Assembly: GCF_001723605.1 (NCBI RefSeq)
Contig: NZ_CP017111.1
Coordinates: 2,666,001-2,730,000 of the forward strand
Source: Sulfurospirillum halorespirans DSM 13726
GTDB lineage: Bacteria > Campylobacterota > Campylobacteria > Campylobacterales > Sulfurospirillaceae
Direction: 5' to 3'
DNA length: 64,000 nucleotides
How positions within the stretch are numbered: position 1 is the stretch's first letter; each line of letters opens with the position of its first letter. A model generated the notes under the pieces. That model had not been told where the DNA came from, did not search any database, and worked only from the letters and a program-made list of their open reading frames with translations. This document shows positions 5,923 through 29,341 of this stretch, in pieces. Made by a program: the position numbers and the translations under genes.

Positions 5923-6711
5923 CTACACTTTAGTGGAATGAACAAAAGAAGGAATGCAGACAGGATAGCCGCAAACCGTCTGTTTAAGCTCGATGTTTGT
6001 GTGGTAAAGCTCGTTAATAAGCTCCTGCGTAATCGTTTTACATGTAAGCCCATGAGCCAAGATATGCCCGTTTTTCAGCGCATAAGTGTAACCGCCTAGC
6101 ATCAGCGCATGTTCAGGAAAATGGGTTGATTTTAAAAAGGTGTAGCCCTCTTTGGAGAGCTTCATAATTGTCTCCAAAAGGCGCAGTTGATTGCCATAAT
6201 CGAGCCCCGAAACGGGCTCATCCATGACCAAGATTTTTGCCCCTTGCGCCAAGGAACGAGCGATTAAAACCAGCTGTTTTTCACCGCCACTCAGCGTTTG
6301 AAAAGTGCGCTTTTCCAGATGCCCAATGCCCAGTCGCTCCATCGCCACACGCGCTAAATCCCTGTCTGTTTTACTTGGTTTTTGAAACCATGACTCAAAA
6401 GCGATGCGCCCCATAACGACAATGTCGAGTGCGCAAAACGCAAACGCAACTTGCGTACTTTGCGGAACATAGCTTACATGTAAAGCGCGTTCTTTAATGG
6501 AATAGCTCTGTAATGTTTTGCCTTTTAAAAACACTTCGCCACTTTTGGGGCTTAAAAGTCCTAAAAAAAGCTTCATCAGCGTACTTTTTCCCGTGCCATT
6601 GGGTCCTAGAAGTGAGACGATGGAACCCTCATCAATGTGAAGATCCACCCCTTGCAAAATCGGCGTGCTGTTGTAGGAAAAATAAAGATTTTCAGCGCTG
6701 TAAAAACTCAT
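5923..6711 (-). CDS. ABC importer ATP-binding protein, FecE/BtuD type
   Basis: Cytoplasmic ATPase of 262 residues for a metal-chelate-type importer. Walker A GPNGTGKST (36-44), Q-loop near Q84, signature LSGGE (140-144), Walker B ILVMDEP (160-166) and H-loop His197 are all present. The start is the ATG at 6711, which overlaps the stop of the permease gene (ATGA). The open frame continues 50 codons upstream but has no homology there. With the permease (6708-7724) and binding protein (7721-8737) it makes one complete importer. The family includes haem, B12, siderophore and the molybdate/tungstate MolC systems; context favours the last. Confidence 0.92.
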   Translation of the reverse strand: MSFYSAENLYFSYNSTPILQGVDLHIDEGSIVSLLGPNGTGKSTLMKLFLGLLSPKSGEVFLKGKTLQSYSIKERALHVSYVPQSTQVAFAFCALDIVVMGRIAFESWFQKPSKTDRDLARVAMERLGIGHLEKRTFQTLSGGEKQLVLIARSLAQGAKILVMDEPVSGLDYGNQLRLLETIMKLSKEGYTFLKSTHFPEHALMLGGYTYALKNGHILAHGLTCKTITQELINELYHTNIELKQTVCGYPVCIPSFVHSTKV

Positions 6712-7724: not shown

Positions 7725-8737
7725 AGCACGCCCGAGATGTGATGGATATGCTCATCGGTTAGATCAATGTTCAAAAAGAGTTTGTAAAACTCACGCATCT
7801 CTTGCGCAAATTGCTCCGAATTGGGCGTATTGTAAAAGATATGCGTCAGCCATCGCACGCCCAAAAGCCGCATAAACGAAGGCGGTCGATCGATCCAGTT
7901 AAACGGCACTTTAGGTACGAGAAAGATTTTGCCCTCATGAACCGCTTTGATGGAATTCCACCTCGCATCGCTTTTGACTTTCTCAAAAAATTCTCTCTCT
8001 TGCGCGATGATGACATCGGGATTGTATAAAATAACTTGTTCTAAAGAGACCTTTTCAAGCCCAAGTCCGCTTTTGGTCGGGCAGAGATGCGGATTAATCC
8101 CCCCTGTAAATTTGATCGCTTCGTAGTGAAATGACTGGTCACACTCGGTTGCAAGCCCATCTGCACCCTCAGCATAATAGACAACAGGGCGTTTTGTCGC
8201 GTTTTGTTGCACAACCCTTTTGGTTTTTTCCAGTACGGCACTGGCATAGTCTGAAAGCACTTTCGCACGAGCTTGCCTGTTTAAAACTTCGCCAAAGAAA
8301 AGGTAGGCTTTGGACAGACTCTCAACACTCTCTAAATCCACATTTATACTAGGTATCTTGCTGCTCTCAAACAGGTACTGCGCTAACTGACTCGAAGCAT
8401 CGTTATTCCATAAAAAGACCACATCGGGATGCAACGAGAGCAAGGTTTCCCTGTTCATACTGTTCCCTCCTCCTTGAAGACCTCCCACAACGGGAAGTGC
8501 CATAAAACGAGGATCGAGCATATTGGAGGATTCGTTATTGCCACGCGCATGGTTAAAGTTCAGCCCTACGATCAAAGAAGCATCAATCGTATAGATCATA
8601 TACGTTGATGGTGGTGAAGTCCCAAATACTTTGGTGATGACATCAGGGATTTCAACTTTTTTACCGCCCATATCGACGATCTCACGAGCACTCAAACTTA
8701 CGAGTAACCCCAAAAGTACTAAAATGATTTTTTTCAT
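7721..8737 (-). CDS. Periplasmic substrate-binding protein 1, FecB/BtuF/MolA-like
   Basis: Class III binding protein of 338 residues delivering ligand to the neighbouring FecCD permease. A signal peptide (MKKIILVLLGLLVSLSA) precedes the mature start REIVDMGGKKVEIPD. I start at the ATG at 8737, which overlaps the stop of the flavoprotein gene; the frame is open for 8 codons more. The C-lobe shows FLVPKVPFNWIDRPPSFMRLLG, closely matched in binding protein 2 (15779-16801) as LIPKSPFNWTDRPPSFMRIIG. The two paralogues are served by only one permease/ATPase set in this window. Ligand proposed to be a Mo/W complex from the ModE context. Confidence 0.88.
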   Translation of the reverse strand: MKKIILVLLGLLVSLSAREIVDMGGKKVEIPDVITKVFGTSPPSTYMIYTIDASLIVGLNFNHARGNNESSNMLDPRFMALPVVGGLQGGGNSMNRETLLSLHPDVVFLWNNDASSQLAQYLFESSKIPSINVDLESVESLSKAYLFFGEVLNRQARAKVLSDYASAVLEKTKRVVQQNATKRPVVYYAEGADGLATECDQSFHYEAIKFTGGINPHLCPTKSGLGLEKVSLEQVILYNPDVIIAQEREFFEKVKSDARWNSIKAVHEGKIFLVPKVPFNWIDRPPSFMRLLGVRWLTHIFYNTPNSEQFAQEMREFYKLFLNIDLTDEHIHHISGVL

Positions 8738-9768
8738 ACCAATTCCTTTGTTACTTCGCAATACGGTCGCACTTTTTCATTAAAGGTTCGCAATAAACTC
8801 ACATTTTCAAGCAGATCAACCCCAAGCGGTTTGAGCGTTATCGTGACGTGGCTCAAACGTGCTTGAATGGCTTTGATTTTTTCAATACACGTTTTAGCAT
8901 CGCCAATGATGCCACAGTCAAAAAACTTCTGCCCATCAAAAAAGGTGTTGCGCTCCACGATCAGTTTTTCATAATGGGTTTTATTGAAATGAGGTGATTT
9001 GTGAAACGAAGAAGCGGCACGCATCGACTTGGCAAAATGGTCAATCGCAGGACGTGCTTTATACACTGCCTCTTCGATGCTAGGGGCAACATAAAACGTA
9101 CGTAACAGCACGATCTGTGGCTTAAACCCAGCGATCGTTTCGTACGCGTGGCTCACCCGTTCGCACTCGTCTAAATCAACCCCTTGCGAGAGCATCAGTC
9201 CAAACCCTTTTTGGGCAGCAAACGCAATGGTTTCATCCGAGGCAAAGGTTGCGATGTACGTTGGTATAGCGGTTTGAAATGGTTTGGGCTCGATATCTAC
9301 TTCTGCAAAATTGATGTATTCACCCTTAAAACCCACGGGATTTTCGTTTACATGTAAAAGCTGCGTTACCGCGTCCACACACTCAAACATCATTGGACGA
9401 AGATTTTCAACAGTGACATTGAAATGCTTAGAATCGGGCGCAAACGCGCCTTTGGCAAAGCCTAAATTCATCCGTCCTTTGGTGAGATGATCCAGCGTCG
9501 CAACCTCTTCTGCTAAACGAATTGCATCGTAAAAAGGGGCTAAAAACCCTGCACAGCCAAGCCTTGCGTACTTTGTTCTTGCCGCGACATACGCTAAGAG
9601 TAACGTGGGTGATGGGCAGATGCTAAAGTCGTTAAAGTGATGTTCACCCACCCAGATTTCATCAAAACGCATCGCATCGGCAAGCTCGATCAACTTGAGC
9701 TGATTTTCAATCGCTTGGTTGGCATTGACATTAAAGCGCTCAAAAAGGCAAAAAATTCCCCATTTCAT
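8734..9768 (-). CDS. LLM-class flavin-dependent oxidoreductase (luciferase-like)
   Basis: TIM-barrel FMN/F420-type oxidoreductase of 344 residues related to bacterial luciferase monooxygenases. Visible family features include ELADAMRFDEIWVGEHHF near the N-terminus, LAEEVATLDHLTKGRMNLGF and PIPTYIA-like PTYIATFASDE. It is locked inside the uptake operon by 4-bp overlaps with the globin-like gene upstream and the binding-protein gene downstream. Typical members oxidise small organic molecules using reduced flavin and O2. Here it could modify or break the imported ligand to free the metal; that role is a guess from context only. Confidence 0.8.
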   Translation of the reverse strand: MKWGIFCLFERFNVNANQAIENQLKLIELADAMRFDEIWVGEHHFNDFSICPSPTLLLAYVAARTKYARLGCAGFLAPFYDAIRLAEEVATLDHLTKGRMNLGFAKGAFAPDSKHFNVTVENLRPMMFECVDAVTQLLHVNENPVGFKGEYINFAEVDIEPKPFQTAIPTYIATFASDETIAFAAQKGFGLMLSQGVDLDECERVSHAYETIAGFKPQIVLLRTFYVAPSIEEAVYKARPAIDHFAKSMRAASSFHKSPHFNKTHYEKLIVERNTFFDGQKFFDCGIIGDAKTCIEKIKAIQARLSHVTITLKPLGVDLLENVSLLRTFNEKVRPYCEVTKELV

Positions 9769-10310
9769 AGAATGCCAAACTCCTCTTTCATGTCTTCATA
9801 CAAAAAACGTTTCATCGGTACGCTTGTGCTTCGGCGGTTGACCATTCGCATCGAAAAAGGCTCGATCCAGTTCCAAAACTCCCCGATCAACTCTTTGGGA
9901 AAATCAAGATCGTGCAGGGTCTGTTTATACGCCATCAACCACACAACCCTTGCCTCATCATCGATGGCAAAAGGGGCATGCGTGCGACACAAAGAAGGTG
10001 GACCGTAACTAAACGTATAGGTTTTTTCACCACCCAACGCTTGAATAAGAAAATGGCTCGCTTTGGTCACGCCTTCCATAAAATGAGCCTCATCACTCGG
10101 GTACATCTGCGCAACAGCGCTTTTTTGAAGCAAGCGGTGATGATGCAACACAATTTTATGAATCGTTTCTGCACCTATTTTTGCTAAAAAGTCAGGTTTT
10201 GGCAAAATAATCGAAGGCAGCGGCGCTTTTAAGTTGATAGGGCTCCATTGAAGGCTTTCGCTCTTTTTAGCGACTGAAGGTTTATGAAGAAAATGATGAC
10301 CATTGCACAT
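9765..10310 (-). CDS. Truncated-hemoglobin-like protein (globin-like 1)
   Basis: Cytoplasmic protein of 181 residues whose core matches group II truncated hemoglobins: a G-G-x3-Y-T-F stretch (GGEKTYTFSYGPPSL), the proximal-His motif THAPFAI and the G8-Trp context ARVVWLMAY. The B10 region reads LHHHRLL, with His where many members have Tyr. About 55 N-terminal residues have no match I know. The paralogue at 13080-13652 shares FWNWIEPFSMRMVNRR / IWNWVESISIRMINRR. It lies between tonB and the flavoprotein gene, overlapping the latter. Haem binding is likely from the conserved His; the function in metal uptake is unknown. Confidence 0.6.
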   Translation of the reverse strand: MCNGHHFLHKPSVAKKSESLQWSPINLKAPLPSIILPKPDFLAKIGAETIHKIVLHHHRLLQKSAVAQMYPSDEAHFMEGVTKASHFLIQALGGEKTYTFSYGPPSLCRTHAPFAIDDEARVVWLMAYKQTLHDLDFPKELIGEFWNWIEPFSMRMVNRRSTSVPMKRFLYEDMKEEFGIL

Positions 10311-10319: not shown

Positions 10320-10997
10320 TTAAGATTTGAGCTTAAAAACAACGGGAATTGCGATCTCTAACGCCTCTTTGGGTGGAAACTCAAACGGAGTCGCATCCAA
10401 AACGGCATCGATGGCATTACGATCTAAAACCACTTTGCCACTGGACTTTGCAATCTTAATAGACGAGGCATCAACCGTTCCATTGGCATGAATCAAAAAT
10501 TGTACGACCGCCTCGCCCTCCACGCCCATCTTTTTAGCCATGGAAGGGTAACGAAGACTCTCTTGGATTTTTTGCCTCACTTTGGCAAGATAGATGGAGA
10601 GCAGATCGTCGCTTTGGCGCGCAGCAGGTGCGCTAATCGCTTGTTCTTGTGCTTTTGCAGGTGCTACTGCTTCGACACGTTGTTCGACAAAAGGCTCAGG
10701 CGAAGGAGTAGATGTGACAACCTGTTTTGGCGTTGGCACGGTTTTAACGATCTCTTTTGGTACTTTTTTTTCAGGCTTTTTCGCTACGATTGGCTCTGGT
10801 GGTGGCGTTACATCGTGTTTGATTTCTTCCGTTACAGGCATAGGTTTTGGCTCATCCAAAAAACTCACTTGCGTGACGATAAACTCGCGCATAGCAGGCT
10901 TTGGTATCATCATACTTCCCATAAAAAGCGCATACGCAATCATTACATGTAAAAAGAGTGTTCCAAATGAAGCGGCGAAAAAATGCGATGCTTTCAC
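10320..10997 (-). CDS. tonB: TonB energy-transducing protein
   Basis: Inner-membrane anchored periplasm-spanning protein that carries proton-motive energy from ExbBD to TonB-dependent receptors. One N-terminal membrane helix (near FGTLFLHVMIAYALFMGSM), a Pro/Lys/Glu-rich spacer (PPPEPIVAKKPEKKVPKE) and a C-terminal domain with SLRYPSMAKKMGVEGEAVVQF, the usual YP motif. I choose the GTG at 10997, which overlaps the exbD stop (GTGA) and follows AAGGGTGG; a GTG at 11051 would overlap exbD by 58 bp and has no good ribosome site. Length 225 residues is normal for the family. Confidence 0.9.
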   Translation of the reverse strand: MKASHFFAASFGTLFLHVMIAYALFMGSMMIPKPAMREFIVTQVSFLDEPKPMPVTEEIKHDVTPPPEPIVAKKPEKKVPKEIVKTVPTPKQVVTSTPSPEPFVEQRVEAVAPAKAQEQAISAPAARQSDDLLSIYLAKVRQKIQESLRYPSMAKKMGVEGEAVVQFLIHANGTVDASSIKIAKSSGKVVLDRNAIDAVLDATPFEFPPKEALEIAIPVVFKLKS

Positions 10998-11401
10998 GCG
11001 CCACCCTTTGTTGTCTGAATCGCAAAGGTGCTGATGCGGTGTTTTTTGCACAGATCGATCACTTTGACCACATATTCAAACGGTGTTTTCGCGTCACTTC
11101 GCAGTAAAATATGAGGCTCAGACGCACTGATCTGGGCGATTTTGGCATCCAAATCTTCGAGCGAAACCGCTACATCATCATAATAAAGCTCACCTGATTC
11201 GCTCAATGAAAGTGTAATCGGTTTTTGCTCATCTTTGCGGTTTTCAGCATTGGAGGCTTGGGGAAGAGTGAGCGGAATTTTACCTTGGGTCACAAAGGTA
11301 GCCGTGACCATAAAAATGACCAAGATGACCAGTACAATGTCCACAAAAGGGGTCATATTGATCTCGGCAATATCGCTCTCATACACAAATTTACGCTTCA
11401 T
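10994..11401 (-). CDS. exbD: Biopolymer transport protein ExbD
   Basis: Inner-membrane protein of 135 residues with one N-terminal membrane helix and a periplasmic domain. The helix carries the essential aspartate in INMTPFVDIVLVILVIFMV (Asp21), which takes part in proton flow with ExbB. It overlaps exbB by 11 bp upstream and tonB by 4 bp downstream, so the three are one unit. The position inside the ModE-linked block suggests a dedicated TonB system for receptors 1 and 2. Confidence 0.93.
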   Translation of the reverse strand: MKRKFVYESDIAEINMTPFVDIVLVILVIFMVTATFVTQGKIPLTLPQASNAENRKDEQKPITLSLSESGELYYDDVAVSLEDLDAKIAQISASEPHILLRSDAKTPFEYVVKVIDLCKKHRISTFAIQTTKGGA

Positions 11402-11837
11402 CGAGCTGCGCTTCTTTGTATGTTAAAATGACTTTGACCCGTCTGATGAAATAGTTGTACGCGATAACGCAAGGAATCGCGACAAAAAGCCCCGTCGCAG
11501 TGGCGATCAACGCTTCAGAGATACCTTGCATAATAGGTTGCACATCAAACGCATTAGAAGCACCAATCGTATGAAACGCTTGGATAATGCCCAAAACGGT
11601 TCCAAAAAGTCCTATAAAAGGGGCATTATTGCCAAAGGTAGCTAAAATGCCCAAACGCGCCTCAAGGCTAAGACGCAACGTATAATAATCCATATTTTGA
11701 TACTTTTTTTCAATCACACTAAACGCTAAAAGACGCTCTATCATCACCCCAACCGCTATCACACTCATGGTGACCAACACCCACAGTACAGGGTCGATCC
11801 CTAACAGGGCAAACGATAAAAGTTTTTCACTCAACAT
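11391..11837 (-). CDS. exbB: Biopolymer transport protein ExbB
   Basis: Inner-membrane proton-channel subunit of the TonB motor, 148 residues, the short form common in Campylobacterota. Three membrane segments: PVLWVLVTMSVIAVGVMIER, the PFIGLFGTVLGIIQAF segment and ISEALIATATGLFVAIPCVI. It is the first gene of a run of eight overlapping or closely packed leftward genes ending with the importer ATPase. Upstream are a structured leader (11876-11914) and a ModE-like site (11944-11967), suggesting that molybdate availability controls the whole operon. Confidence 0.92.
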   Translation of the reverse strand: MLSEKLLSFALLGIDPVLWVLVTMSVIAVGVMIERLLAFSVIEKKYQNMDYYTLRLSLEARLGILATFGNNAPFIGLFGTVLGIIQAFHTIGASNAFDVQPIMQGISEALIATATGLFVAIPCVIAYNYFIRRVKVILTYKEAQLDEA

Positions 11838-11943: not shown

Positions 11944-11967
11944 CATTATAACGTAATATATATGACA
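11944..11967 (-). promoter_or_regulatory. ModE-like operator and promoter of the exbB operon
   Basis: CATTATA-N10-TATGACA, one strong and one weaker half-site (5 of 7) with the ModE spacing. On the minus strand it contains a TATAAT -10 hexamer (11949-11944) with TTGTAT 17 bp upstream as a possible -35. Binding here would block RNA polymerase, as expected for ModE repression when molybdate is plentiful. Confidence 0.55.
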
Positions 11968-12116
11968 ATACAACGGTAAAGTATACACCCACCACCTACT
12001 TAAGTGTTTAAAAAATAAGCAATCCCTTTTCTAAAAGGCTTTCCAAAAGCGCTTCACACGACTTTTGTGCTATACTTATTTTTAAATTACTCCTTCCTAG
12101 GATACAGAGGACACCC

Positions 12117-12890
12117 ATGTTAGAAGCACGACTTTGGATGAAAAAAAGCGATAAAAATTTTCTTGGCAAAGGGCGCATTGAGCTTTTAGAGAACATTCGA
12201 GAGTTTGGCTCAATCCACGCAGCCGCCAAAGCCATGAAGATGAGTTACAAAGCCGCATGGGATTCGGTAGATGCCATGAACAATCTCTCAGAGATTCCTT
12301 TGGTGCTAAAAACAAGTGGCGGCAAAGGTGGTGGTGGGACGATTATCACCCCAAAAGGCGAAGAGGTTATCGCGGCATTTCATAACTTGCAAGCTAAACA
12401 TCAGCAATTTTTAGATCTTTTTGCCAACAGTGACGACCTGCTTACCATCGTTCAAACCCTAAGCCGACTCTCATTGAAACTGAGTGCGCGCAACCAACTT
12501 ATCGGAACTATCAGCGCGATTAGCGAAGATGCCGTCAATGTTGCGATTGAGCTGACTATCAAAGCTGCTGATAAAATTTATTCCAGTATTACCAAAAACA
12601 GTTACCAAGAGCTTGGTCTTCATCTTGGAGAGAGTGCCATTGCGATCATCAAAGCAAGCTCTGTGCTTCTTTCAAAAACAAAACCGACTATTGCGTGTGA
12701 AAACCTCCTCAAAGGCACAATCATCCAAATCCTCAGTGACACATCCAACACCGAAGTGACGCTGGAATTGGAGAGTAAAAGCACCATCACAGCGACCATT
12801 ACCAACGATGCATTTGAGCCACTTAATCTCAAAATAAACGAAGAAGCGTATGCTTTTTTCAAAGCTTCCAATGTTATTTTAGGCGTTTGA
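12117..12890 (+). CDS. modE: Molybdate-responsive transcription regulator ModE
   Basis: Cytoplasmic dimeric DNA-binding protein of 257 residues, the full-length ModE layout. The N-terminal winged helix includes GSIHAAAKAMKMSYKAAWDS (31-50) and the typical KTSGGKGGGGTIITP wing (65-79). Two Mop/TOBE molybdate-binding domains follow (about 122-187 and 193-257, each with a SARNQLIGTI- or CENLLKGTI-like start). It is divergent from exbB and upstream of the second receptor operon. Five matching operator-like sites lie in this window, all in front of other genes; none was seen before modE itself, where a TATACT -10 is visible near 12071. Confidence 0.92.
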   Translation: MLEARLWMKKSDKNFLGKGRIELLENIREFGSIHAAAKAMKMSYKAAWDSVDAMNNLSEIPLVLKTSGGKGGGGTIITPKGEEVIAAFHNLQAKHQQFLDLFANSDDLLTIVQTLSRLSLKLSARNQLIGTISAISEDAVNVAIELTIKAADKIYSSITKNSYQELGLHLGESAIAIIKASSVLLSKTKPTIACENLLKGTIIQILSDTSNTEVTLELESKSTITATITNDAFEPLNLKINEEAYAFFKASNVILGV

Positions 12891-13008: not shown

Positions 13009-13032
13009 CATTATATTTTAATTTATATAACG
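13009..13032 (+). promoter_or_regulatory. ModE-like operator upstream of globin 2 / TonB receptor 2 operon
   Basis: CATTATA-N10-TATAACG, matching the ModE consensus at 13 of 14 half-site positions with exact spacing. It lies 48 bp before the ATG at 13080. A direct repeat ACGTATT (13030-13036, 13052-13058) follows, possibly a second protein site. Confidence 0.7.
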
Positions 13033-13079: not shown

Positions 13080-13652
13080 ATGCCTGTCATGATCGATGGA
13101 ATTAAAGTTCAGTTATTCAGTGAGTGCGATACAAACGCCCCTTTCCCCACTGCCGATGAGACGCCAAGGCGTGCACACCCCAAGATCGATATGATCTTCC
13201 CCGAAGTCTTTTTCCCTTCCAATAGAACCTATTTAGCTCTTGGTGAAGCCAAAATTCGTGAAGTGGTCAAAGTCCACCATGAGCTTGTGCGTCACAGTAA
13301 GATCGGGCATCTCTATCCGCAAGAGGAAGCTGATTTTATCGCAGCTACAAGTAAAATCGAAGACTTTTTTGTGCAGATGCTAGGCGGCAAAGACCTCTAC
13401 ACGAGCGTGCAAGGGCATCCCAAACTTCGCGATCGCCATTTTCCCTTTGAAGTGACCGAAACAGGGCGCGATATTTGGCTGATGAGTTTTCGAAAAGCCC
13501 TCAAACAATGCGCCGTTCCTAAAGAATTTTTGCCTGAAATTTGGAATTGGGTTGAGTCCATCTCGATTCGTATGATTAACAGGCGGACGAGTATGGAGAT
13601 GGTCAAGCGCTACCCATATGAGAGTATCCGCTCCTATTTTGATGCTGAATAA
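13080..13652 (+). CDS. Truncated-hemoglobin-like protein (globin-like 2)
   Basis: Protein of 190 residues, paralogous to the one at 9765-10310. Shared core: HLYPQEEADF, then GGKDLYTSVQGHPKLRDRHFPFEV with the proximal His, and RDIWLMSFRKAL with the G8-type Trp. These match group II truncated hemoglobins. The N-terminal 50 residues (with DETPRRAHPKIDMIFP) are unlike normal globins. It is the first gene of the receptor 2 operon, behind a ModE-like operator and an AAGGAG ribosome site. That each of the two receptor operons carries one such protein argues for a real link to uptake, for example handling of ligand, redox state or O2. Confidence 0.6.
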   Translation: MPVMIDGIKVQLFSECDTNAPFPTADETPRRAHPKIDMIFPEVFFPSNRTYLALGEAKIREVVKVHHELVRHSKIGHLYPQEEADFIAATSKIEDFFVQMLGGKDLYTSVQGHPKLRDRHFPFEVTETGRDIWLMSFRKALKQCAVPKEFLPEIWNWVESISIRMINRRTSMEMVKRYPYESIRSYFDAE

Positions 13653-13688: not shown

Positions 13689-15767
13689 ATGAAGAAAACC
13701 TCGCTTTCATGGATCGTTGCTATGAGTTTGTGTTCTGCGTGTGCGGCACAAAGTGTTACCTTAGAGCCCGTTGCTGTTGAAGGAGAACAAGAGGCTTCCA
13801 CACCCATTCGTTTAAGTGACGCAAAGACCGCTCTTCTTTTAGAAGATCAAACTTCTCAGCCGTCCACGCTTAATGAAGCACTGAGCGATACCTTTTTTGT
13901 CAACTACAAAAAAGCGGGTGAATACAACTCGGAGCCTTACATCAGAGGGCGTTCGGTTGCAGGTGTTCCCATTTATATCGAAGGAATGCGTCTTAATGCA
14001 GCCCATAATGACGCCACCAATCTCTTTAATATGAGTGATGTGGCAGAAGTGGACGTTTACAGAGGTGCGAATGGTGCGACGCTTGGTATGGGCGCTATGA
14101 GCGGTGGCGTGGTCGTGAAATTTAAAGAACCACAGTTTAGCACGAGTGATGAATTTCAAACATCAAGTTTTATCAATGCCAAAACCTCTCTGTTCTCAAC
14201 CACAGGCTATGCGACAACGCTTGGTACGACGCTGTATAATCAATGGCTCAATGTCTCCTTTAGCGGCGGGGTGAATGAGTATAATGCTTACGAAAATGGC
14301 AGTGGCGATGAAGTGCCTCATTCGGACTCGGAAGCCTCACATTACAACCTTTCCGCAGCCATTAAAACGGGTGATGACAGCTATATTTACGGTCGTTTTA
14401 TGAAAGATAAAAGCAGCTCTGCCGATCCACTTTCACGCTACCAACAAAGTGGCATTTGGTACTATACCGATCATCCCGATGACGATGCCAAAACCTACTT
14501 TTTTGGCTTTAAAAAAGGCGAATGGAATGGGTTCAGTGACATTGACCTCCAATTCTTTGGCAATGACCTTCACTATGATGTCAATACCAAAAAAGAGTCT
14601 TCGGTGCCTTACGCCACAGAACTTTTCAGGGAGAGTGAGACCAGAGGTGTTAAACTCTCTGCTAAAAAAGAGCTAGACGCACACCAAACACTTTCATTGG
14701 CGATGACTTATTCTAAGATGGAGATCACCAATGGTGTGAGACAATGGAGCACCAGTACGAATTCATGGGGTGATTGGAGCAGTGCCTTTGGAATTAAAGG
14801 AGGCGATATTACTACGATGGGGGTTCAAATTGCCGATGATATTAAATTCGATAAGGCATTTTACACGCTTGCGCTTGGCTATGAAAACGTCAAACGCAAC
14901 GTCACTTCCAATGTCAATACAACCAAACTAGACTCCCTAATCCCCGAAGCGCTTGATACACTGATTCAAAAAACCAACACCGATGAACGCGACAATCTTC
15001 TCTCCATGAGTGCCAAAGCAGGCTATGAATTTTCACCCGCTTTTGTACCCTATATCAAACTCTCTAATGCAGAGCGAACCCCTTATTTTAACGAAGCGTA
15101 TGGCAATAATCCAAGTAATGGAAGTCAAATTCCCAATCAAACGCTTGAAAATGAAAAAGTATGGGACATCGATGTAGGCATGGATGGTAAATACGAGCGT
15201 TTTTACTACACCTCAGCGCTTTACTACCAACGCTACTCGGATTACATCGAGCTTGTTAAAACAGGCTACCTGACCACGGGTGGACTTCCTATCAAACGTT
15301 ACATCAACCTAGATGAAGCGATCATTTACGGTGCTGAAGCGATGGCAGGCTATGGACTAGGGAATGATCTTTTTGTGGAAGCGGCGTATCTGTACACACA
15401 CGGTCAAAATGAAGATGATGACACACCTTTAGCCTTTATCGCCCCTCAAAAACTCACTCTCTCTTTGGCACAAAAACGCTCAAAAGGGCTCAGTTGGAAA
15501 CTCGAAGAAGTCTTTGTTGACAATCAAGACCGTATCTCCAGCGTCAATGGCGAAATCGCAACACCGGGGTATTCTTTGACAAACGCTTCGATGAGTTATG
15601 GATTTTCAAAACTAGGCATTCTTAAAAATGCTGTGGTCAGTTTTGAACTCAATAATATCTTTGATAAATCGTATCGTGAACACCTCGATAAAATCTCTTC
15701 AACAGCATGGTATTTACCTGACAACGCTGGTATCAACGGTGTTTTATCGCTTAAAGCGGCATTTTAA
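13689..15767 (+). CDS. TonB-dependent outer-membrane receptor 2
   Basis: Outer-membrane receptor of 692 residues: signal peptide (MKKTSLSWIVAMSLCSACA), short TonB-box region (VTLEPVAVEGEQ), plug with PYIRGRSVAGVPIYIEGMRL and RGANGATLGMGAMSGGVVVKF, and a long barrel ending LSLKAAF with terminal Phe. It lies 36 bp after the globin-like gene and 11 bp before binding protein 2. Receptor 1 (3823-5835) is only distantly related, so the two may recognise different complexes or different metals (for example Mo and W). No ABC permease accompanies it, so it probably shares the importer at 5923-8737. Confidence 0.9.
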   Translation: MKKTSLSWIVAMSLCSACAAQSVTLEPVAVEGEQEASTPIRLSDAKTALLLEDQTSQPSTLNEALSDTFFVNYKKAGEYNSEPYIRGRSVAGVPIYIEGMRLNAAHNDATNLFNMSDVAEVDVYRGANGATLGMGAMSGGVVVKFKEPQFSTSDEFQTSSFINAKTSLFSTTGYATTLGTTLYNQWLNVSFSGGVNEYNAYENGSGDEVPHSDSEASHYNLSAAIKTGDDSYIYGRFMKDKSSSADPLSRYQQSGIWYYTDHPDDDAKTYFFGFKKGEWNGFSDIDLQFFGNDLHYDVNTKKESSVPYATELFRESETRGVKLSAKKELDAHQTLSLAMTYSKMEITNGVRQWSTSTNSWGDWSSAFGIKGGDITTMGVQIADDIKFDKAFYTLALGYENVKRNVTSNVNTTKLDSLIPEALDTLIQKTNTDERDNLLSMSAKAGYEFSPAFVPYIKLSNAERTPYFNEAYGNNPSNGSQIPNQTLENEKVWDIDVGMDGKYERFYYTSALYYQRYSDYIELVKTGYLTTGGLPIKRYINLDEAIIYGAEAMAGYGLGNDLFVEAAYLYTHGQNEDDDTPLAFIAPQKLTLSLAQKRSKGLSWKLEEVFVDNQDRISSVNGEIATPGYSLTNASMSYGFSKLGILKNAVVSFELNNIFDKSYREHLDKISSTAWYLPDNAGINGVLSLKAAF

Positions 15768-15778: not shown

Positions 15779-16801
15779 ATGCGTTTTACTCTTGCTTTTT
15801 TACTGATGTTTGTTTCGCTTTTTGCCAATGAAGCGCGCACCTTTGTCGATATTTCAGGCAAATCGATCACGTTGCCTGAACCTATCACGCGTATTTATGG
15901 CTCGGCGCCACCGATTAGTTTTATGATTTACGTCATTGATGATGCACCTCTCATTGGTGTGAATTTTCCACAAACCAACCAAGATAACGCCAATGGCGAC
16001 ACATTTTTGTCCAAACATTTTATGAGCCTTCCGATTTTAGGCGGTTGGCATGGCAATAACACACCCAACCTTGAAGCCATTATCGCCGCAAAACCCGACG
16101 TGATCATCACATGGGATACGCCGCTTCTGAATGAAAAAACGGCGAAAGATATAGCGCGCATCAACATTCCTGCACTGAAAGTGAACATCGATGATTCGCG
16201 TAACTATCCTGAAGTGTTTCGCTATCTTGGTAAAGTCATGCACAAAGAGGAGCGCGCCAATGCGCTTGCATCCATGGCTCAAACCTATTTGGATGAGCTG
16301 AAAACCTTTGTGGCAAGCGTTCCTCTAAGTGAGCGTACCAAAGTCTATTATGCCGAAGGTTCTTTTGGCTTGCAAACCGAGTGCGATGTCTCGTTTCACT
16401 CCGAACCTTTGATGCTTGCAGGGGGAAATTTAGTCCATAAATGCGTTCAAAACAGCGTCATCGGCATGCAAGAGGTTAGTTTTGAGCAGGTTTTGAGTTA
16501 TGAGCCTGAGGTGATTATCGTTCAAAGTCCTGCCTTTTACAAAACAATCTTTGAAGATAAGAAATGGGCGTTGCTTAAAGCGGTACAAGCCAAACATGTT
16601 TATCTTATTCCAAAATCGCCTTTCAACTGGACAGATCGTCCGCCTTCTTTTATGCGCATCATTGGCGCACACTGGATCGCAAGCAAGCTCTATCCTACCC
16701 GTTATCCGTACAAAATTCAAGAAAAAGTCAGAGCGTTTTACCAACTCTTTTTTGGTGTCTCGCTCAGTGATAAAGAGCTTAAAACCTATTTTGATCTTTA
16801 A
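15779..16801 (+). CDS. Periplasmic substrate-binding protein 2, FecB/BtuF/MolA-like
   Basis: Binding protein of 340 residues with signal peptide MRFTLAFLLMFVSLFA, paralogous to the protein at 7721-8737. Shared signatures include VYYAEGSFGLQTECD against VYYAEGADGLATECD and FNWTDRPPSFMR. These conserved Cys/Asp residues in both copies might be ligand contacts. It follows receptor 2 by 11 bp and precedes the radical SAM fusion gene by 46 bp. It would hand the ligand to the single FecCD-type permease at 6708-7724. Ligand identity is not visible. Confidence 0.85.
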   Translation: MRFTLAFLLMFVSLFANEARTFVDISGKSITLPEPITRIYGSAPPISFMIYVIDDAPLIGVNFPQTNQDNANGDTFLSKHFMSLPILGGWHGNNTPNLEAIIAAKPDVIITWDTPLLNEKTAKDIARINIPALKVNIDDSRNYPEVFRYLGKVMHKEERANALASMAQTYLDELKTFVASVPLSERTKVYYAEGSFGLQTECDVSFHSEPLMLAGGNLVHKCVQNSVIGMQEVSFEQVLSYEPEVIIVQSPAFYKTIFEDKKWALLKAVQAKHVYLIPKSPFNWTDRPPSFMRIIGAHWIASKLYPTRYPYKIQEKVRAFYQLFFGVSLSDKELKTYFDL

Positions 16802-16847: not shown

Positions 16848-18629
16848 ATGATTTGCCCAATTTGCGAACGAAGATGCCGTGTGGAAGACAACGGCATAGG
16901 TGCATGTGGACGTTACCAATGCCAAAATGAGACGATGATAGAACGCTTTGCTAATTCGTATCTTGTCGTAGCACCCATCTCTGCTGAGACGATGCCCGTG
17001 CTTCATTTTCATCCCCGTGCCAAATTTTTGCAAATTAGCACCACAGGGTGTAATTTTGACTGTTTGGGGTGCATCTCAACCGTTGTTGCCAAAGAGATGA
17101 ATGTACAAAGCCCAGCGCTTAAACAGTTATCGCCGATGCAAATTATCAACAAAGCATTAGAGCAAAAATGCGATGGAATCGCCTTTTTAATGAATGATCC
17201 CCTCGCCTCGTTTTACACGTTTCTTGAAATTTGCACCCTTGCCAAAGAGTATGGTCTGTTGACAGGGTGTTCCACCAATGGCTATTTCACACCCGAATCT
17301 CTTGATCTACTCGCCCCTCATTTAGATTTTGTCAACATTGGGCTTAAAGGTTTGTGCAATGACGTCTACAAAAGTTGTGGCGCAAACAGCTACAAACCCG
17401 TTTTGCGCAATATTGAACTTTTTTACCGAAAAGGCGTTCATGTCGAAGTAGCATATATTCATAAAAAAGATAACGAAGAAGAGGTCTTAGCGATAGCGGA
17501 GACTTTATCACACATCTCTAAAGAGATTCCCCTTCAAATCATGCGGTTTATCCCTATTGATGATGCGAGCATTAGCCTTGAGCCTTCCATATTAGCCTCT
17601 GAGATGCTTTATAAAAAACTCATATCACATCTTGATTATGTCTATCTTTTCAACTCCCCAGGATCGGAATGCCTCAATACCTACTGTCCTGAATGTGGTG
17701 CACTGATTTTTGAGAGAGATTTTTACGGTCCAATGGGTTCAAAATTAAGAACGATTAGCCTTAACTATCAGAATAACACCTGCGCACACTGCCATCATCT
17801 TCTTCCCATCATAGGAGAACCGTGTCAAAAAGTATTTGATGAAGATGGTTTTGAAGGCGGCTATCCACTCACCAGAGCCTTAGAAATTGTCGAAGGAACA
17901 CTCGTAACTTTGGGTGTTACAGAGCAAAAAGATGTCACAACGTGTTGGGAAGAACTTTTACGAGGTGACGGGCTGAAACGTTTACATGTAAACATTCAAA
18001 ACTTTGACGATTATGCCAAAACGATTGAATATCTTGCCACACTGACCCATAGAGAAGATACTGCCAAAAAGCTTTTAACCTATATGCGAGAGAAGATTGC
18101 TGTCATTGCGCAAGAACTCCCCAACATACAAACCAAACCACGCGTCTATTACGTGATGGGGAAGCCCCTGTTTGCACTTGAAGAGGAGCGTCTTGAAAAT
18201 CAATTGGTAGAGATGGCAGGAGGTATTAGTGTCAACAAAACGCTCAGTTTAAAAGGAAGACCCGGACGAAAAATATCAGCTCAAAAACTCAACGAGCTCA
18301 ATCCTGATGTTATTTTTATTTCGTCATTTTTGGATTGTCCGCTAGATGAGTTTTACGCGTATTGTGAAAAACAAGGCATTGTTGTCAATGCAACGAAACA
18401 CAAACGCATCTATACGCACCTTGCCCCTTGCTTTGATTTTGGTAGTCCTCGTTGGATTTTAGGCTTGATGCACATTGCCAATATGCTGCATCCCGAACGG
18501 TATCATTTCGATGTTTTAAAAGAAGCAACCCTCTTTTATCGGGAGTTTTACGAAAGTGACTTTACGATTGCTTCGGTTAATCGCTCCTTTGCAAAACCAA
18601 GCAAATACCACACAATGATGCAAATTTAA
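16848..18629 (+). CDS. Radical SAM protein fused to a cytoplasmic binding-protein-like domain
   Basis: Protein of 593 residues with two parts. The N-terminal part (about 1-310) resembles activase-type radical SAM proteins: an MICPICERRC...GAC cysteine set (C3, C6, C10, C20), then the SAM-cluster motif C68-x3-C72-x2-C75 (TTGCNFDCLGC), and a third Cys group further on (CPECG, CAHCH). The C-terminal part (about 330-570) resembles the FecB/BtuF fold (RVYYVMGKP, LNELNPDVIFISSF, PRWILGLMHIANMLHPERY), like binding proteins 1 and 2. There is no signal peptide, so this part would be cytoplasmic. The ATG at 16848 has AAGGA upstream; the frame stays open for 99 codons more but these overlap binding protein 2. 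A fusion of this kind is unfamiliar to me; it may sense or process the imported ligand. Confidence 0.8.
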   Translation: MICPICERRCRVEDNGIGACGRYQCQNETMIERFANSYLVVAPISAETMPVLHFHPRAKFLQISTTGCNFDCLGCISTVVAKEMNVQSPALKQLSPMQIINKALEQKCDGIAFLMNDPLASFYTFLEICTLAKEYGLLTGCSTNGYFTPESLDLLAPHLDFVNIGLKGLCNDVYKSCGANSYKPVLRNIELFYRKGVHVEVAYIHKKDNEEEVLAIAETLSHISKEIPLQIMRFIPIDDASISLEPSILASEMLYKKLISHLDYVYLFNSPGSECLNTYCPECGALIFERDFYGPMGSKLRTISLNYQNNTCAHCHHLLPIIGEPCQKVFDEDGFEGGYPLTRALEIVEGTLVTLGVTEQKDVTTCWEELLRGDGLKRLHVNIQNFDDYAKTIEYLATLTHREDTAKKLLTYMREKIAVIAQELPNIQTKPRVYYVMGKPLFALEEERLENQLVEMAGGISVNKTLSLKGRPGRKISAQKLNELNPDVIFISSFLDCPLDEFYAYCEKQGIVVNATKHKRIYTHLAPCFDFGSPRWILGLMHIANMLHPERYHFDVLKEATLFYREFYESDFTIASVNRSFAKPSKYHTMMQI

Positions 18630-18660: not shown

Positions 18661-18684
18661 CGTTATAGTTGCATGTATATAACG
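18661..18684 (+). promoter_or_regulatory. ModE operator (perfect half-sites) upstream of the methyltransferase gene
   Basis: CGTTATA-N10-TATAACG, a perfect palindrome in its half-sites and identical to the E. coli ModE half-site consensus and spacing. It overlaps a promoter: TTGTAC (18641-18646), 17-bp spacer, TATAGT (18664-18669). It ends 16 bp before the ATG at 18701. Confidence 0.8.
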
Positions 18685-18700: not shown

Positions 18701-19468
18701 ATGGAACCCAATTTCAATTTTTGGGATAATATGGCAAAGCGCTACCCGCGTTTTAATGATATTTCAATGAGTAAAGATGTCAATCACATCATCAACTGGT
18801 GTCAAAACAGAAATGTCTCATTTGAAGGTGCTTCTATTTTAGATATTGGTGCAGGTACGGGAACCATTGCCATTCCTTTAGCCCAAAAAGGTGCACACGT
18901 CACGGCTATGGACATTTCTGAGGGTATGTTAGCCGCACTCAATGAAGATGCCAAAGAGCAAGGCGTTAGCTTACAAATGCACACGCACCAAAGCGATTGG
19001 GATTCGTTTCCTCTGAGTCAACAGTACGACATCGTGATCGCGTCCATGACACCTGCGATTAGCGATCTTCAAAAAATTGACAAAATGCTAGGTGCGACCA
19101 AAGGACTTGGCATTTACGTAGGCTGGGGAAAATATCGCATCAATAAACTGGTCGAAGCCTTGGTCAAGGCGCATATCATCGAAGAAGAGGAAGATTGCGC
19201 ATCGGCAGGTTGCATTAAAGCGGCGCAATTTATTGACATCTTAGATGAGCGAAACATTCCTTATGAGAGCAGTTTTTTTGAAACCTCTTGGAGTGAAACG
19301 TATAGTTTTGAAGAGGCAAAAGAGTACGCCTACGATCAACTCAAACGCAAAGAAATCGTACCCAACGAAGCAATCGTTGAATCCATTTTGTCCGAAAATC
19401 TTGATGGCGATAAAGTCCAAGTAACCACGGAAGCTGAAAAAGGGATTATTTTATGGAGAGTTGCGTAA
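18701..19468 (+). CDS. Class I SAM-dependent methyltransferase
   Basis: Cytoplasmic methyltransferase of 255 residues with the SAM-binding motif ILDIGAGTGTIAIPLA (about 47-62) followed by the acidic VTAMDIS strand end and a motif IV-like YDIVIASMTP. The C-terminal half (about 150-255) is acidic and of unknown specificity. It has its own ModE operator and promoter, the best one in the window, so it is a predicted member of the molybdenum regulon. It could modify a metal-chelating small molecule or the pterin cofactor pathway; substrate unknown. Confidence 0.8.
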   Translation: MEPNFNFWDNMAKRYPRFNDISMSKDVNHIINWCQNRNVSFEGASILDIGAGTGTIAIPLAQKGAHVTAMDISEGMLAALNEDAKEQGVSLQMHTHQSDWDSFPLSQQYDIVIASMTPAISDLQKIDKMLGATKGLGIYVGWGKYRINKLVEALVKAHIIEEEEDCASAGCIKAAQFIDILDERNIPYESSFFETSWSETYSFEEAKEYAYDQLKRKEIVPNEAIVESILSENLDGDKVQVTTEAEKGIILWRVA

Positions 19469-25006: not shown

Positions 25007-25906
25007 TTAAAACTTGCCTTTTTCTTTCAGCTTCTTATACCACGCATTGTGAAGGATCTTCACTTCCTCTTCTTCGACGTAGCCTGTGATAATGCTATGC
25101 ACAGCGCCTTTAATCGCAAACATAGACATATACACATGGGTAATGAAGAGTGCAACGACGGCAAATCCCATAACGTTATGCAAAATCGCTGCAACGCGCA
25201 GTAAATCAATCTGGCTAAGACCTGTGATATTATGTAACATTTCCATCTTGAAGTCCAAGAAAAACATAAAAGCACCACTTAAAATCATCGTGATGCCACC
25301 AAGGATTGCGACCCAGTACCACATCTTTTGACCGGCGTTAAATTGGGTTGCATTAATGATCTGTTTCTCTTTAGAAAGGTAGCCTCCGAGAATCATAAAC
25401 CACTTCACATCTTCCAGATTAAACAGTGCCTCTTTAAGCCACATCAACGCCATTGGAATGACCACAATCGCAAAAGGAATGGTAAAGAGTCCATGAAGGT
25501 TCTTTGCCATTCTCACGAGCGTTCCACCCCCAAAGAAGTCACCAAACACGATGATGAATCCTGTGGGAAGCAGCACCAAAAAGCTAACCGCCGCAATTTG
25601 ATGGACGGTTCGATGAAACAGATTAAAGGCATAATGTTTGTTATGACTGTGTGGGAATACTTTAGGCCCTACGATTTTATAGTGTAAGAAAAACACCAAA
25701 GGAACGCCTAACAAGACGCCTAGGAAGATCCATGCAAAGTATTTGCTTTGCAACAGGGTAAACAAGGGTCCTAATTTCCATGACTCTTCTTGTCCGTATC
25801 CTAGAATATTTTGGATGCGCATCTCACCCCAGATTTGGCTATCAGTGGCGTATGCCACTGATGCCAAACACAGAGCTGCAATGAACAGTGTCATATACTT
25901 TCTCAT
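25007..25906 (-). CDS. fdhC: Formate dehydrogenase cytochrome b subunit
   Basis: Integral membrane subunit (299 residues) that passes electrons from FdhB to the quinone pool through b-type haems. An N-terminal signal sequence (MRKYMTLFIAALCLASVAYA) is followed by a periplasmic stretch and four membrane segments, with conserved histidines in NLFHRTVHQIAA, NLHGLF and ILHNVMGFAVVALFITHVYM. The ATG at 25906 has GGAGC upstream; one at 25924 would overlap fdhB. It is the last gene of operon 2. Similar in layout to Wolinella FdhC. Confidence 0.92.
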   Translation of the reverse strand: MRKYMTLFIAALCLASVAYATDSQIWGEMRIQNILGYGQEESWKLGPLFTLLQSKYFAWIFLGVLLGVPLVFFLHYKIVGPKVFPHSHNKHYAFNLFHRTVHQIAAVSFLVLLPTGFIIVFGDFFGGGTLVRMAKNLHGLFTIPFAIVVIPMALMWLKEALFNLEDVKWFMILGGYLSKEKQIINATQFNAGQKMWYWVAILGGITMILSGAFMFFLDFKMEMLHNITGLSQIDLLRVAAILHNVMGFAVVALFITHVYMSMFAIKGAVHSIITGYVEEEEVKILHNAWYKKLKEKGKF

Positions 25907-25916
25907 TGCTGCTCCT

Positions 25917-26483
25917 TTATGCACCTTTACCTCGACCCGCTACCCTTTTGCGGTAAATGGTTGAGACACTCTCCGCATCGCCAACAAGAAGCGCATTGGT
26001 AGAACACACCGCCGCACACATCGGTACACGTCCCTCAGCGATACGGTTTTGACCGTAAAGATGTCGCTCTTTTTCAGAGTTCGTCTCAAGTGGTCCTCCT
26101 GCACACATCGTACATTTATCCATCGCTCCCTTAGCACCAAAAGCACCATCTCGTGGGAATTGTGGAGCACCAAACGGACATGCGTACAAGCAGTAACCAC
26201 AACCGATACACTTCTCTTTATCATGAAGGACGATGCCGTCTTCACGAATGTAGAAACAATCCACTGGGCAAACTTGCTCGCATGGTGCGTCTGTACAGTG
26301 CATACATGCAATCGATGTTGAGACTTCTTTACCTTCAATACCATCAAACAGCGTAATGACTTTACGACGACTAATACCCGTTGGAAGTTCATGCGCCTCA
26401 GCACATGCGACTGAACACGCAAAACACTCGATACATCTGTTATCATCACAGTAAAATTTCATTCTTGACATTTCATTACTCAT
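25917..26483 (-). CDS. fdhB: Formate dehydrogenase iron-sulfur subunit
   Basis: Electron-transfer subunit of 188 residues with four ferredoxin-type cysteine groups: CIECFACSVAC (C17-C27), CMHCTDAPCEQVCP, CIGCGYCLYACP and a final CTMCAGG / CAAVC pair. It carries electrons from FdhA to the FdhC haems on the periplasmic side and is carried across with FdhA by its Tat signal. I start at the ATG at 26483 (preceded by GGGGGTGG), 11 bp after the fdhA stop; the frame remains open to 26516 inside fdhA. Confidence 0.94.
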   Translation of the reverse strand: MSNEMSRMKFYCDDNRCIECFACSVACAEAHELPTGISRRKVITLFDGIEGKEVSTSIACMHCTDAPCEQVCPVDCFYIREDGIVLHDKEKCIGCGYCLYACPFGAPQFPRDGAFGAKGAMDKCTMCAGGPLETNSEKERHLYGQNRIAEGRVPMCAAVCSTNALLVGDAESVSTIYRKRVAGRGKGA

Positions 26484-26494
26484 TGTCCACCCCC

Positions 26495-29332
26495 CTATGC
26501 TTTCTCGACACGGCATAGACCCGCGTTGAATTCTGAAATTTGTGTGATTACGTCAAAACCATAGTTTGTGATGGTGTTTGAGCTCTCACCGATAGCATAC
26601 GGTTTCGTACCTTCTGGGTAATTCGCACTCAAATCGATCCCTTGGAAAACACCTGCAAAGTTGTATGGCATACAGATACGGTCCGCGGTAACACTGTGAT
26701 TATGGTACGCTTTAACCTTGATCTTTGTGCCATGCGGCGCATGAATCCACATCATGTCACGATCTTTAATGCCATGTTTAAGCGCCAAGTCTGGGTGAAT
26801 GTTACAGAACATCTCTGGCGTAATCGCTGAGAGGTATTTGCTCGTTCGCTCTAACATACCAGCACCTGAAAGGTTAACAACCCTCATGCTGACCAACATG
26901 GTTGGGAACTCTTTTGACCAATCTTGCTTTTGTTGCTCAGACTTAAATTTCGTCTCAACACGGAAGTTTTTAGGCTGATCTTCATAGGTTGGGTATTTCG
27001 CAACCAAATCCCATCTTGGTGAGTGAATAGGCTCTCTATGCAATGGCACTGGATCTGGGAATTCCCAAACAATCGTACGTGCTCTTGCGTTTCCATAAAC
27101 ACAAACCCCTGCTTCGCGTGCTTTTTGCTGAATGAGTCCACTAAAGTCCATCGCCCAGCTTCCGCCCATTTGCGCTTTTTCTTCCTCGGTCAATGTAATG
27201 CCAAGCACTTTTTCGATGTTCTCTTTCGTGAGTTGTGGGTAACCACCCTCGATTTTTGAGCCTTTAACCGTAACAGATTTATCGGCGAGTTGGCTTACAC
27301 CATTGTGCTCTAAACCAAAACGATTTCTAAAGCCCATACCGCCTTCAGCCACTGGAACATCACGACGATAAAGAATAGGAGAACCCGGATGTTTATCATC
27401 CCAACATGGCCATGGAAGCCCATAGTACTGACCTTTCATTGGTCCTTTTCCCTCTAGGGTTACAGGATCAAACATATGCCAGTTCTCTTGATGGCTGCGA
27501 AGTCTCTCAGGAGTCCATCCGCTTAAGCCAATGGATTTGATAGTTCTTGCAATTTCCGTGACTGCGTCATCTGGCCATTTGAAGTCATTTTTCACTTGAA
27601 CGACTTTGCCATCTTTAACGCCCATCTTCATACCCTGAACAAACTGATCGTAGAAGCCAAATTTCTTCGCAAAAAGGAACATAACCTCTTCGTCTGTTTT
27701 GCTCTCATAAAGAGGCTCAACGACTTTACTTCTCCACTGATTTGATCTATTGGTAGCCGTTACCGTTCCTTCACACTCAAACTGAGTTGCAACAGGTAAG
27801 ATATAAATGCCATCTTTGCGACTCGTTAGAACAGCTGCTTCGTTGACAAATGGCTCTGCAATAACCACAAGGTCGAGCTTGTCCAATGCTTCTTTTATTT
27901 TCGCTTGTTGAGACATGGAAGTAATACCCGTTCCTTGAATCCAAACGGCACGAACCGGTGCTGAAGAGTATGTTTTCACCTCTTGAAGAACACCTTGCCA
28001 CCATTGAGAAAGTGAGTAACCTTTTTCATTCATCCATTTTTTCTCAAAGAATCTGCCTTTGAGCCATTCATAATCCACACCCCAAGACTGCGCGAAGTAT
28101 TTCCAAGCACCATCTTCAAGACCATAATAGCCTGAAAGTGAGTCTGCAAGGTTACCCATATCGGTTGCACCTTGAACGTTGTCATGTCCACGAATGATGT
28201 AAAGTCCACCACCTTTTTTACCCATGTTGCCAAGAGCAATTTGAAGGACTGGAAGGATTCTGGTGTTAGATGAGCCCACACTGTGCTGTGTAATACCCAG
28301 TGACCATGCAATAGCGCTTGGTGTATTTTTAGCAAAAAGTGTTGTTGCTTGAATGATTTGATCGACTGGGATGCCTGTAACATCAGAAGTGAGTTCTGGT
28401 GTCCACTTCGCAGCCTCCGCACGGATTTGATCCATCGCGTAAGAACGTGTGTCGATAAATTCTTTATCTTCCCAACCATTTTTGAAGATGATGTGAAGCA
28501 TTCCGTAGACAAATGCAATGTCTGTACCTGAACGAATACGTAGGTAAAGATCTGCTTTTGCCGCACTTCTGGTGTAAATTGGATCAACAACGATCAATTT
28601 TGTACCATTACGGTCTTTTGCTTGTAAGAAGTGTTTAAATCCAATAGGGTTTGCAACGGCTGAGTTTGCACCAATCATCATAATGACTTTTGCATTAACA
28701 GCATCGCCGAATTGTTGTGTCATAGCACCGTATCCAAATGTATTCGCAGCACCTGCGACGGAAGCACTATGTCAGATTCTAGCTACGTGGTCAATATTGT
28801 TTGTTCCCCACATTGCAGCAAATTTTCTAAAATAGAAAGATTGTTGCAAGCTGAATTTTGCTGAACCTAAAAACTCGACAATGTCTGGGCCATTTTCGGC
28901 ACGCATTTTAAGCATTTTCTCTGAAATCTCGTTAACAGCTTGATCCCAACTGATTCGTTGCCATTTTCCGTCTACTTTTTTCAGAGGATATTTAATACGT
29001 TGTGTACTCTTCACCAAATCAATCTGGTCAATACCTTTACAACAATGGCTGCCTTCACTGATTGGGTGATCTTGAGCCACATCTTGGCGTACCCACACAC
29101 CGTTTTGAACTTCAGCAATGATTCCGCAACCCGCAGAACAAATGCTACAAATCGTTTTAACTCTCTTGCTACCTGGGAATGGATTTTTCACTTCTTCTTC
29201 AGTGGCTGGTCTGATTGAGTCACTGGATGCAAAGGCTGAACCTGCTCCAAAACTCGCTCCGATCGCTGCCATTTTAAGAAATGATCGTCTTCCCATGTGC
29301 AAAGAGGCGTCTTTTAACATCTCTTTACTCAT
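26495..29332 (-). CDS. fdhA: Formate dehydrogenase catalytic subunit, selenocysteine-containing (copy 2)
   Basis: Complete protein of 945 residues including Sec187, encoded by the TGA at 28774-28772. Before it are a Tat signal (GRRSFLK, 14-20) and a 4Fe-4S motif C62-x2-C65-x3-C69; after it the bis-MGD domains follow to NAGLCRVEKA. A stop-based reading would split it into 186 and 742-residue pieces, yet the homology to copy 1 and to FdhA enzymes crosses the TGA without a break. The operon is chaperone, Tat protein, fdhA, fdhB, fdhC. A ModE-like site at 32306-32329 precedes the operon, which links this copy, not visibly copy 1, to molybdate. Confidence 0.95.
28733..28774 (-). promoter_or_regulatory. 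SECIS element of fdhA copy 2
   Basis: After the UGA (28774-28772) the mRNA has stem CGCA/UGCG (28757-28754 with 28748-28745) around loop GGUGC, GGU at nucleotide 22 from the U of UGA, as in fdhA copy 1 and E. coli fdhF. Compensating differences between the two copies keep the stem paired (C-G in copy 1 is A-U in copy 2). Confidence 0.75.
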
Positions 29333-29341
29333 CTAATCTCC

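Follow-up and report, generated by a model that had tools for sequence, protein, structure and literature searches.

What would a cytoplasmic radical SAM (RSAM) enzyme do with part of a periplasmic binding protein? The question is raised by a gene of Sulfurospirillum halorespirans DSM 13726 that lies among TonB-dependent uptake genes in the window, the 64,000-nucleotide stretch of DNA analysed here (contig NZ_CP017111.1, 2,666,001 to 2,730,000). The initial annotation had described its product as an RSAM domain with extra cysteine groups joined to a FecB/BtuF-like domain; the latter could hold an imported ligand in the cytoplasm while the former removes or alters the organic part to free the metal. 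We found no published description of the fusion or of a TonB/ModE system of this kind.

The fusion protein and its two halves

The focal gene is a single unbroken frame, with these parts:

16848..18629, plus strand: fusion of an RSAM domain and half an SBP, 593 aa (PF04055 and PF01497; in 10 of 24 Sulfurospirillum genomes; dN/dS 0.04-0.12)
16848..17852, plus strand: AmmeMemoRadiSam-type RSAM domain, aa 1-335 (TIGR04337, 6.5e-33; cysteines conserved)
17868..18626, plus strand: one-lobe class III SBP-like domain, aa ~341-593 (phmmer, AF2, Foldseek)

Pfam places Radical_SAM (PF04055) at aa 64-219 (2.9e-20) and Peripla_BP_2 (PF01497) at aa 384-522 (1.4e-6). With a PF04055 score of 73.6 bits (gathering score 29.5) and a CxxxCxxC motif at C68/C72/C75, the protein belongs to the RSAM superfamily, and the added cysteine groups are there as described (C3/C6/C10/C20 and C280/C283/C312/C315). 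In an alignment of 13 sequences nine of these eleven positions (C3, C6, C10, C20, C68, C72, C75, C280, C283) never vary, and the other two, C312 and C315, hardly do (one row ends before both). The absence of a signal peptide is likewise confirmed: the most hydrophobic 12-residue stretch within the first 40 aa has a hydropathy of 0.33, whereas values of 2.7 and 3.25 are reached in the two periplasmic paralogues (PBP1 and PBP2). A longer gene starting at a TTG (16551) would run into PBP2. In most orthologues the frames span 597-601 aa for 593-aa proteins, leaving almost no open frame 5' of the ATG, and the ATG start was therefore kept.

Apart from the unusual architecture, nothing suggests that the gene is an artefact, either two real genes joined by a frameshift, which the initial annotation had named as the finding that would overturn it, or a decaying pseudogene. 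Ten of the 24 Sulfurospirillum genomes carry the same frame unbroken (G000, G235, G206, G379, G056, G400, G123, G209, G398, G404), some only ~68% identical and in separately assembled records, and dN/dS is about 0.04-0.12 in both halves and the linker in comparisons with unsaturated synonymous sites. Frameshift, assembly error and decay are thereby ruled out, an artefact being almost certainly the wrong reading; the fusion is one protein under purifying selection.

The best NCBIfam model for the RSAM half is by far TIGR04337 (AmrS), the next family reaching only 7.6e-8. The entire half can be aligned with AmrS, and the family's set of 11 cysteines is complete (four N-terminal, three of the SAM cluster, four C-terminal). 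However, the score of 114 bits is below the cut-off of 220, the YTYNEP of AmrS is replaced by FLMNDP and three residues are deleted near aa 204. By the NCBIfam cut-off the fusion is a superfamily member outside AmrS. Its neighbours are an SBP, a methyltransferase and ModE rather than AMMECR1 or Memo, and a separate AMMECR1-AmrS-Memo set is found elsewhere in the same genome (L056). A tree of RSAM relatives sets it on a separate long branch, distinct from both AmrS and a 341-aa subfamily; the program cautions about long branches. We know of no established reaction for AmrS.

This 341-aa subfamily is a second, stand-alone AmrS-like group in Campylobacterota (L044-L055) with no apparent AMMECR1 or Memo neighbours; it outscores true AmrS against the fusion. 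Frames of ~600 aa in other Campylobacterota families were considered as the same fusion and rejected, as they are RSAM-Memo fusions. In four such loci (L036, L037, L038 and L039; e.g. L036 9458-11239) AmrS appears to be fused C-terminally to Memo, which Pfam confirms in L036 and L038, with AMMECR1-like genes adjoining. Memo thus occupies the same end as the lobe of our fusion, a parallel architecture. That AmrS-type RSAM domains gained a C-terminal partner more than once favours a substrate-module role for the lobe.

The C-terminal half derives from a binding protein, as proposed (PF01497, Foldseek), but it is not the whole fold. phmmer matches it to 4ovk (2.4e-10) and 4pag (3.3e-9) from about residue 114 of the mature SBPs onward (4pag 114-313, 4ovk 119-329), and residues 1-113 of the 4pag chain have no counterpart. 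After misaligned SBP N-termini had been trimmed from the alignment (A3), an AF2 model of aa 332-593 (11-row alignment; pLDDT 77.7, pTM 0.80) has helices, a long hinge helix and a C-lobe, and its top Foldseek ranks are 4ovk, 4pag (Sulfurospirillum deleyianum) and MolA (3psa). The structure prediction that had been suggested as a check thus returns the C-lobe and hinge of the binding-protein fold and lacks the N-lobe strands. Since the full-length AF2 model is weak (pLDDT 61), no packing of the lobe against the RSAM barrel is claimed. The PF01497 score is marginal (28.4 against a gathering score of 27.5 bits); with one lobe and hinge only, and an N-terminus of low hydropathy in place of an export signal, the fused domain is not a functional two-lobed exported class III SBP.

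Fusion orthologues share the motifs FALE(E/D)xRLENQ, GRPG(R/K)K and FDFGSPRW, where PBP1 and PBP2 carry TECDxSFH, HKC and NWxDRPPS, and the C-terminal part is accordingly modelled as one lobe with a conserved surface of its own. The proposal that this domain holds the imported ligand is not supported as it was worded: a single lobe without the PBP1/PBP2 motifs gives no ground for assuming an identical ligand bound in an identical manner.

The lobe might instead be a docking or sensing module directed at the permease/ATPase or at a Mo/W enzyme, with the RSAM half modifying a protein as activases do. Its RSAM fold is PFL-activase-like (8fo0, 3cb8), a single lobe has no usual inter-lobe pocket, and the regulator Btr (NF049932) offers a precedent for a cytoplasmic SBP domain used as a sensor. 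We consider this unlikely, as the cluster contains no glycyl-radical enzyme or other obvious protein target and the conserved lobe motifs suggest a small ligand.

Gene neighbourhood and ModE-type boxes

The fusion gene is surrounded by these features (boxes have no strand):

3823..5835, minus strand: TonB-dependent receptor 1 (PF00593, 1.4e-46)
5864..5887: ModE box upstream of TonB receptor 1, kept in relatives
5923..8761, minus strand: PBP1, FecCD permease and ATPase (PF01497, 2.1e-16; PF01032, 1e-76; PF00005, 1.3e-31)
8734..10310, minus strand: luciferase-like monooxygenase and globin A (PF00296, 8.2e-49; PF01152, 7e-11)
10320..11837, minus strand: TonB-ExbD-ExbB (PF03544, PF02472, PF01618)
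11952..11975: ModE box between divergent exbB and modE, kept in relatives
12117..12890, plus strand: ModE, HTH and two Mop/TOBE domains (NF007957, 167 bits, cut-off 369)
13009..13032: ModE box upstream of globin B-TonB receptor 2-PBP2-fusion, same position in relatives
13080..13652, plus strand: bacterial-like globin B (PF01152, 8.8e-18)
13689..15767, plus strand: TonB-dependent receptor 2 (PF00593, 7.2e-28; PF07715, 5.6e-11)
15779..16801, plus strand: PBP2, periplasmic binding protein with signal peptide, orthologue of PDB 4pag (PF01497, 5.5e-15)
18661..18684: ModE box between fusion and methyltransferase, one mismatch, kept in relatives
18701..19468, plus strand: class I SAM-dependent methyltransferase with its own ModE box (PF13649, 2.1e-15)
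25007..32209, minus strand: formate dehydrogenase cluster, alpha subunit with in-frame TGA (DHVARI-TGA-HSA)
32306..32329: ModE box upstream of the formate dehydrogenase cluster, pattern match

The plus-strand order is ModE, globin B, TonB receptor 2, PBP2, fusion and methyltransferase; on the minus strand ExbB, ExbD, TonB, globin A and the monooxygenase are followed by PBP1, FecCD, ATPase and TonB receptor 1. PBP2, 46 bp upstream of the fusion, is the true periplasmic paralogue that had been placed in the same operon. ModE scores 116 bits with the Mop model TIGR00638 (cut-off 55). The formate dehydrogenase is of the selenocysteine type, and SelA/SelB-like frames, named by inspection, lie at 35863-39036. 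Two molybdopterin-oxidoreductase (formate dehydrogenase-like) N-terminal frames end in TGA, at 28772-29332 and 1872-2432; for the former, in-frame readthrough into the catalytic part was verified in the sequence.

The box pattern was found by eye on comparing modE-linked intergenic regions of three relatives. It is an 8-N8-8 palindrome, C[AG]T[AT]ATAT-N8-ATA[CT]AA[CT]G, whose half-sites and spacing equal the published ModE consensus ATCGCTATATA-N6-TATATAACGAT (PMC2700814). The window holds 12 strand-matches at six places, the sixth weak (43020), against 0.41 expected; because some of these sequences helped to define the pattern, the window and genus counts carry a degree of circularity, and those from outside the genus do not. 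Allowing up to one mismatch, the rest of the genome adds three sites: two fall within genes, and one, ~0.27 kb upstream of a molybdopterin oxidoreductase operon, is in a plausible promoter position. There is no box between PBP2 and the fusion, nor at the modABC locus, where another ModE paralogue is encoded. Box positions are kept across Sulfurospirillum loci, also in genomes without the fusion. A separate box stands 12-18 bp ahead of the methyltransferase start in nearly all loci, and one locus that lacks the importer (L103) still pairs ModE with the methyltransferase.

A ModE-type regulator with Mop domains and palindromes at the promoters together make this a predicted ModE regulon. With ModE as the adjacent regulator and its boxes in front of both TonB-receptor operons, exbB/modE, the methyltransferase and the formate dehydrogenase cluster, the metal is most likely molybdenum or tungsten; the metal-uptake setting that had been proposed fits this regulation, with the metal narrowed to these two. 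MolA (HI1472, 3psa), a relative of PBP2, is the only characterised close relative, and MolBC-A transports molybdate (PMC4031551), a role that fits ModE control of this cluster. The C-lobe and hinge helix of MolA and of the S. deleyianum protein (4pag), both class III SBPs, can be aligned to the fused lobe; unlike them, the fused domain is cytoplasmic, is missing roughly the first 113 residues of a mature SBP and does not have the PBP1/PBP2 ligand motifs. ModA is present in every Sulfurospirillum genome by family search, so the importer is not the sole Mo route.

An enzyme for anaerobic release of iron or cobalt from heme, a siderophore or a corrinoid, as for ChuW-type RSAM proteins, would make the ModE link incidental. 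ChuW/HutW, the RSAM enzyme of anaerobic heme breakdown, resembles our case in lying beside a TonB/SBP uptake system, the receptors come closest to TonB-hemin among NCBIfam subfamilies, and BtuF and IsdE models hit the SBP domain. These scores are far below cut-off, however (141 and 185 of 317 bits for TonB-hemin; 26-27 bits of 234 and 299 for BtuF and IsdE), the absence of any Rfam match in 1-45000 leaves no cobalamin riboswitch, and ModE-type boxes occur within and beyond the genus. ChuW/HutW also differs in RSAM family, in its Fur-type rather than ModE context and in having no fused lobe. We regard iron or cobalt release as very unlikely.

Distribution and possible role of the fusion

Among 397 Campylobacterota genomes the whole fusion protein is confined to Sulfurospirillum. 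A scan with one genome per species, which detects close relatives only, returned S. diekertiae and two MAGs; no fusion was found on plasmids, and viral contigs yielded one distant RSAM protein and no SBP. PBP2 is present in 14 of the 24 Sulfurospirillum genomes, and all ten fusions occur with it (a count uncorrected for relatedness), which upholds the description of a cytoplasmic RSAM domain fused to a binding-protein-derived domain in an operon with a TonB receptor and a periplasmic paralogue. Its place is downstream of PBP2 and ahead of the final methyltransferase, whether or not TonB receptor 2 is present. The expectation that it would recur beside TonB receptors in other genomes is not borne out, given its restriction to one genus and several species without TonB receptor 2 at that place. 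Three relatives (G109, G397, G182) keep the TonB receptor 2-PBP2-methyltransferase operon with the fusion gene cleanly absent, and the fusion is therefore dispensable; in G405 the operon stops at a contig edge. G209 and G398 have an extra methyltransferase between PBP2 and the fusion, which is thus flanked by two different methyltransferase copies (L040 9213-12596, L105 10280-13663). A strict alternation of the fusion with the luciferase-like monooxygenase, as O2-independent and O2-dependent routes, was rejected, since the two coexist in some genomes and are both missing from others.

Because the fusion never occurs without PBP2, yet is missing from some relatives that contain PBP2, it is best read as an accessory step for the ligand of PBP2, outside transport proper. 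Regulation, location and architecture were computed, and from them we infer a ligand and a reaction: with a probability of roughly 40%, the cytoplasmic enzyme processes a Mo/W-ligand complex delivered by the PBP2-route importer. It would be an AmrS-type RSAM enzyme with a single MolA/4PAG-like class III SBP lobe as C-terminal substrate module, comparable to RSAM enzymes that depend on a substrate-presenting partner. On Mo/W limitation ModE would permit synthesis of the TonB/FecBCD importer, which would bring in Mo or W bound to an organic ligand. Either this complex or the ligand once emptied of metal may dock on the lobe against the RSAM barrel; radical chemistry, then perhaps the neighbouring methyltransferase, would alter the ligand, and the released metal would reach molybdopterin enzymes such as formate dehydrogenase. 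Against this stand the fact that MolA binds bare molybdate, an organic ligand being assumed, the lack of PBP1/PBP2 ligand motifs in the lobe, the three relatives without the fusion and the ubiquity of ModA in the genus.

Biosynthesis rather than breakdown is somewhat unlikely, though not without support: the RSAM half and the methyltransferase would make or tailor a small Mo/W chelator or cofactor, with the lobe as scaffold. The two adjoin under Mo/W-type boxes, the lobe has its own motifs (basic GRPGRK, FDFGSPRW), and ModE-methyltransferase pairs exist without PBP2 or fusion (L101-L103). NifB, an RSAM enzyme, works with NifEN, whose lobes share a helical-backbone metal-receptor fold, and NifN-NifB fusions join the two in Mo metabolism; the lobe described here, in contrast, is of SBP type in sequence, and domain order and RSAM type differ. 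Weighing against biosynthesis, the cluster has no evident synthetase, ligase or exporter, sequence matches to nitrogenase-type proteins are lacking, and the fusion tracks an import protein. No nitrogenase genes were found in the neighbourhood examined.

Bacterial Mo/W uptake is usually described through ModABC, TupABC or WtpABC; if a TonB route and its attendant enzymes are under ModE control, Mo/W chelates would be expected to serve as nutrients. More tentatively, the cluster may represent a novel TonB-dependent Mo/W metallophore pathway of Campylobacterota, with the fusion as the first enzyme to free or insert Mo/W by radical chemistry on a lobe-held ligand. In the fusion a lobe recycled from a transporter would handle the substrate of a radical enzyme, and relatives with and without it in otherwise equal operons offer a genetic handle for finding the ligand.

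The importer module outside the genus

Of the 397 Campylobacterota genomes, 71 encode relatives of PBP2 at a threshold of 1e-40. Most of 15 sampled non-Sulfurospirillum loci have a receptor/SBP/FecCD/ATPase module, often with a monooxygenase, methyltransferase and globin added. ModE boxes with at most one mismatch are present in nine of the 15: 17 boxes in 242 kb, mostly directly before module genes, against about 0.17 expected from six Markov resamples. Boxed loci adjoin modE in five cases (L115, L116, L119, L120, L126), ModA-type genes, named by inspection, occur in L115 and L120, and a QRPTase of ModD type in L119 and L126. None of the 15 loci contains the RSAM gene. The module's link to Mo/W thus appears to extend outside Sulfurospirillum, with the fusion added in this one genus.

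Clusters of this type resemble iron/heme uptake; the regulatory evidence nevertheless points to Mo/W, and by its boxes the recurring TonB/FecBCD module looks like Mo/W rather than iron uptake. It is a larger new lead than the fusion itself. The module of TonB/FecBCD, monooxygenase, methyltransferase and globin genes with ModE boxes (window 3823-11837 and 12117-19468; L113-L127) recurs across Campylobacterota. A ~244-aa protein starting with an IDDTDE motif also recurs adjacent to such modules (L109 2124-2855, L120 4070-4804, L122 4143-4874), its L120 and L122 copies being without a Pfam match.
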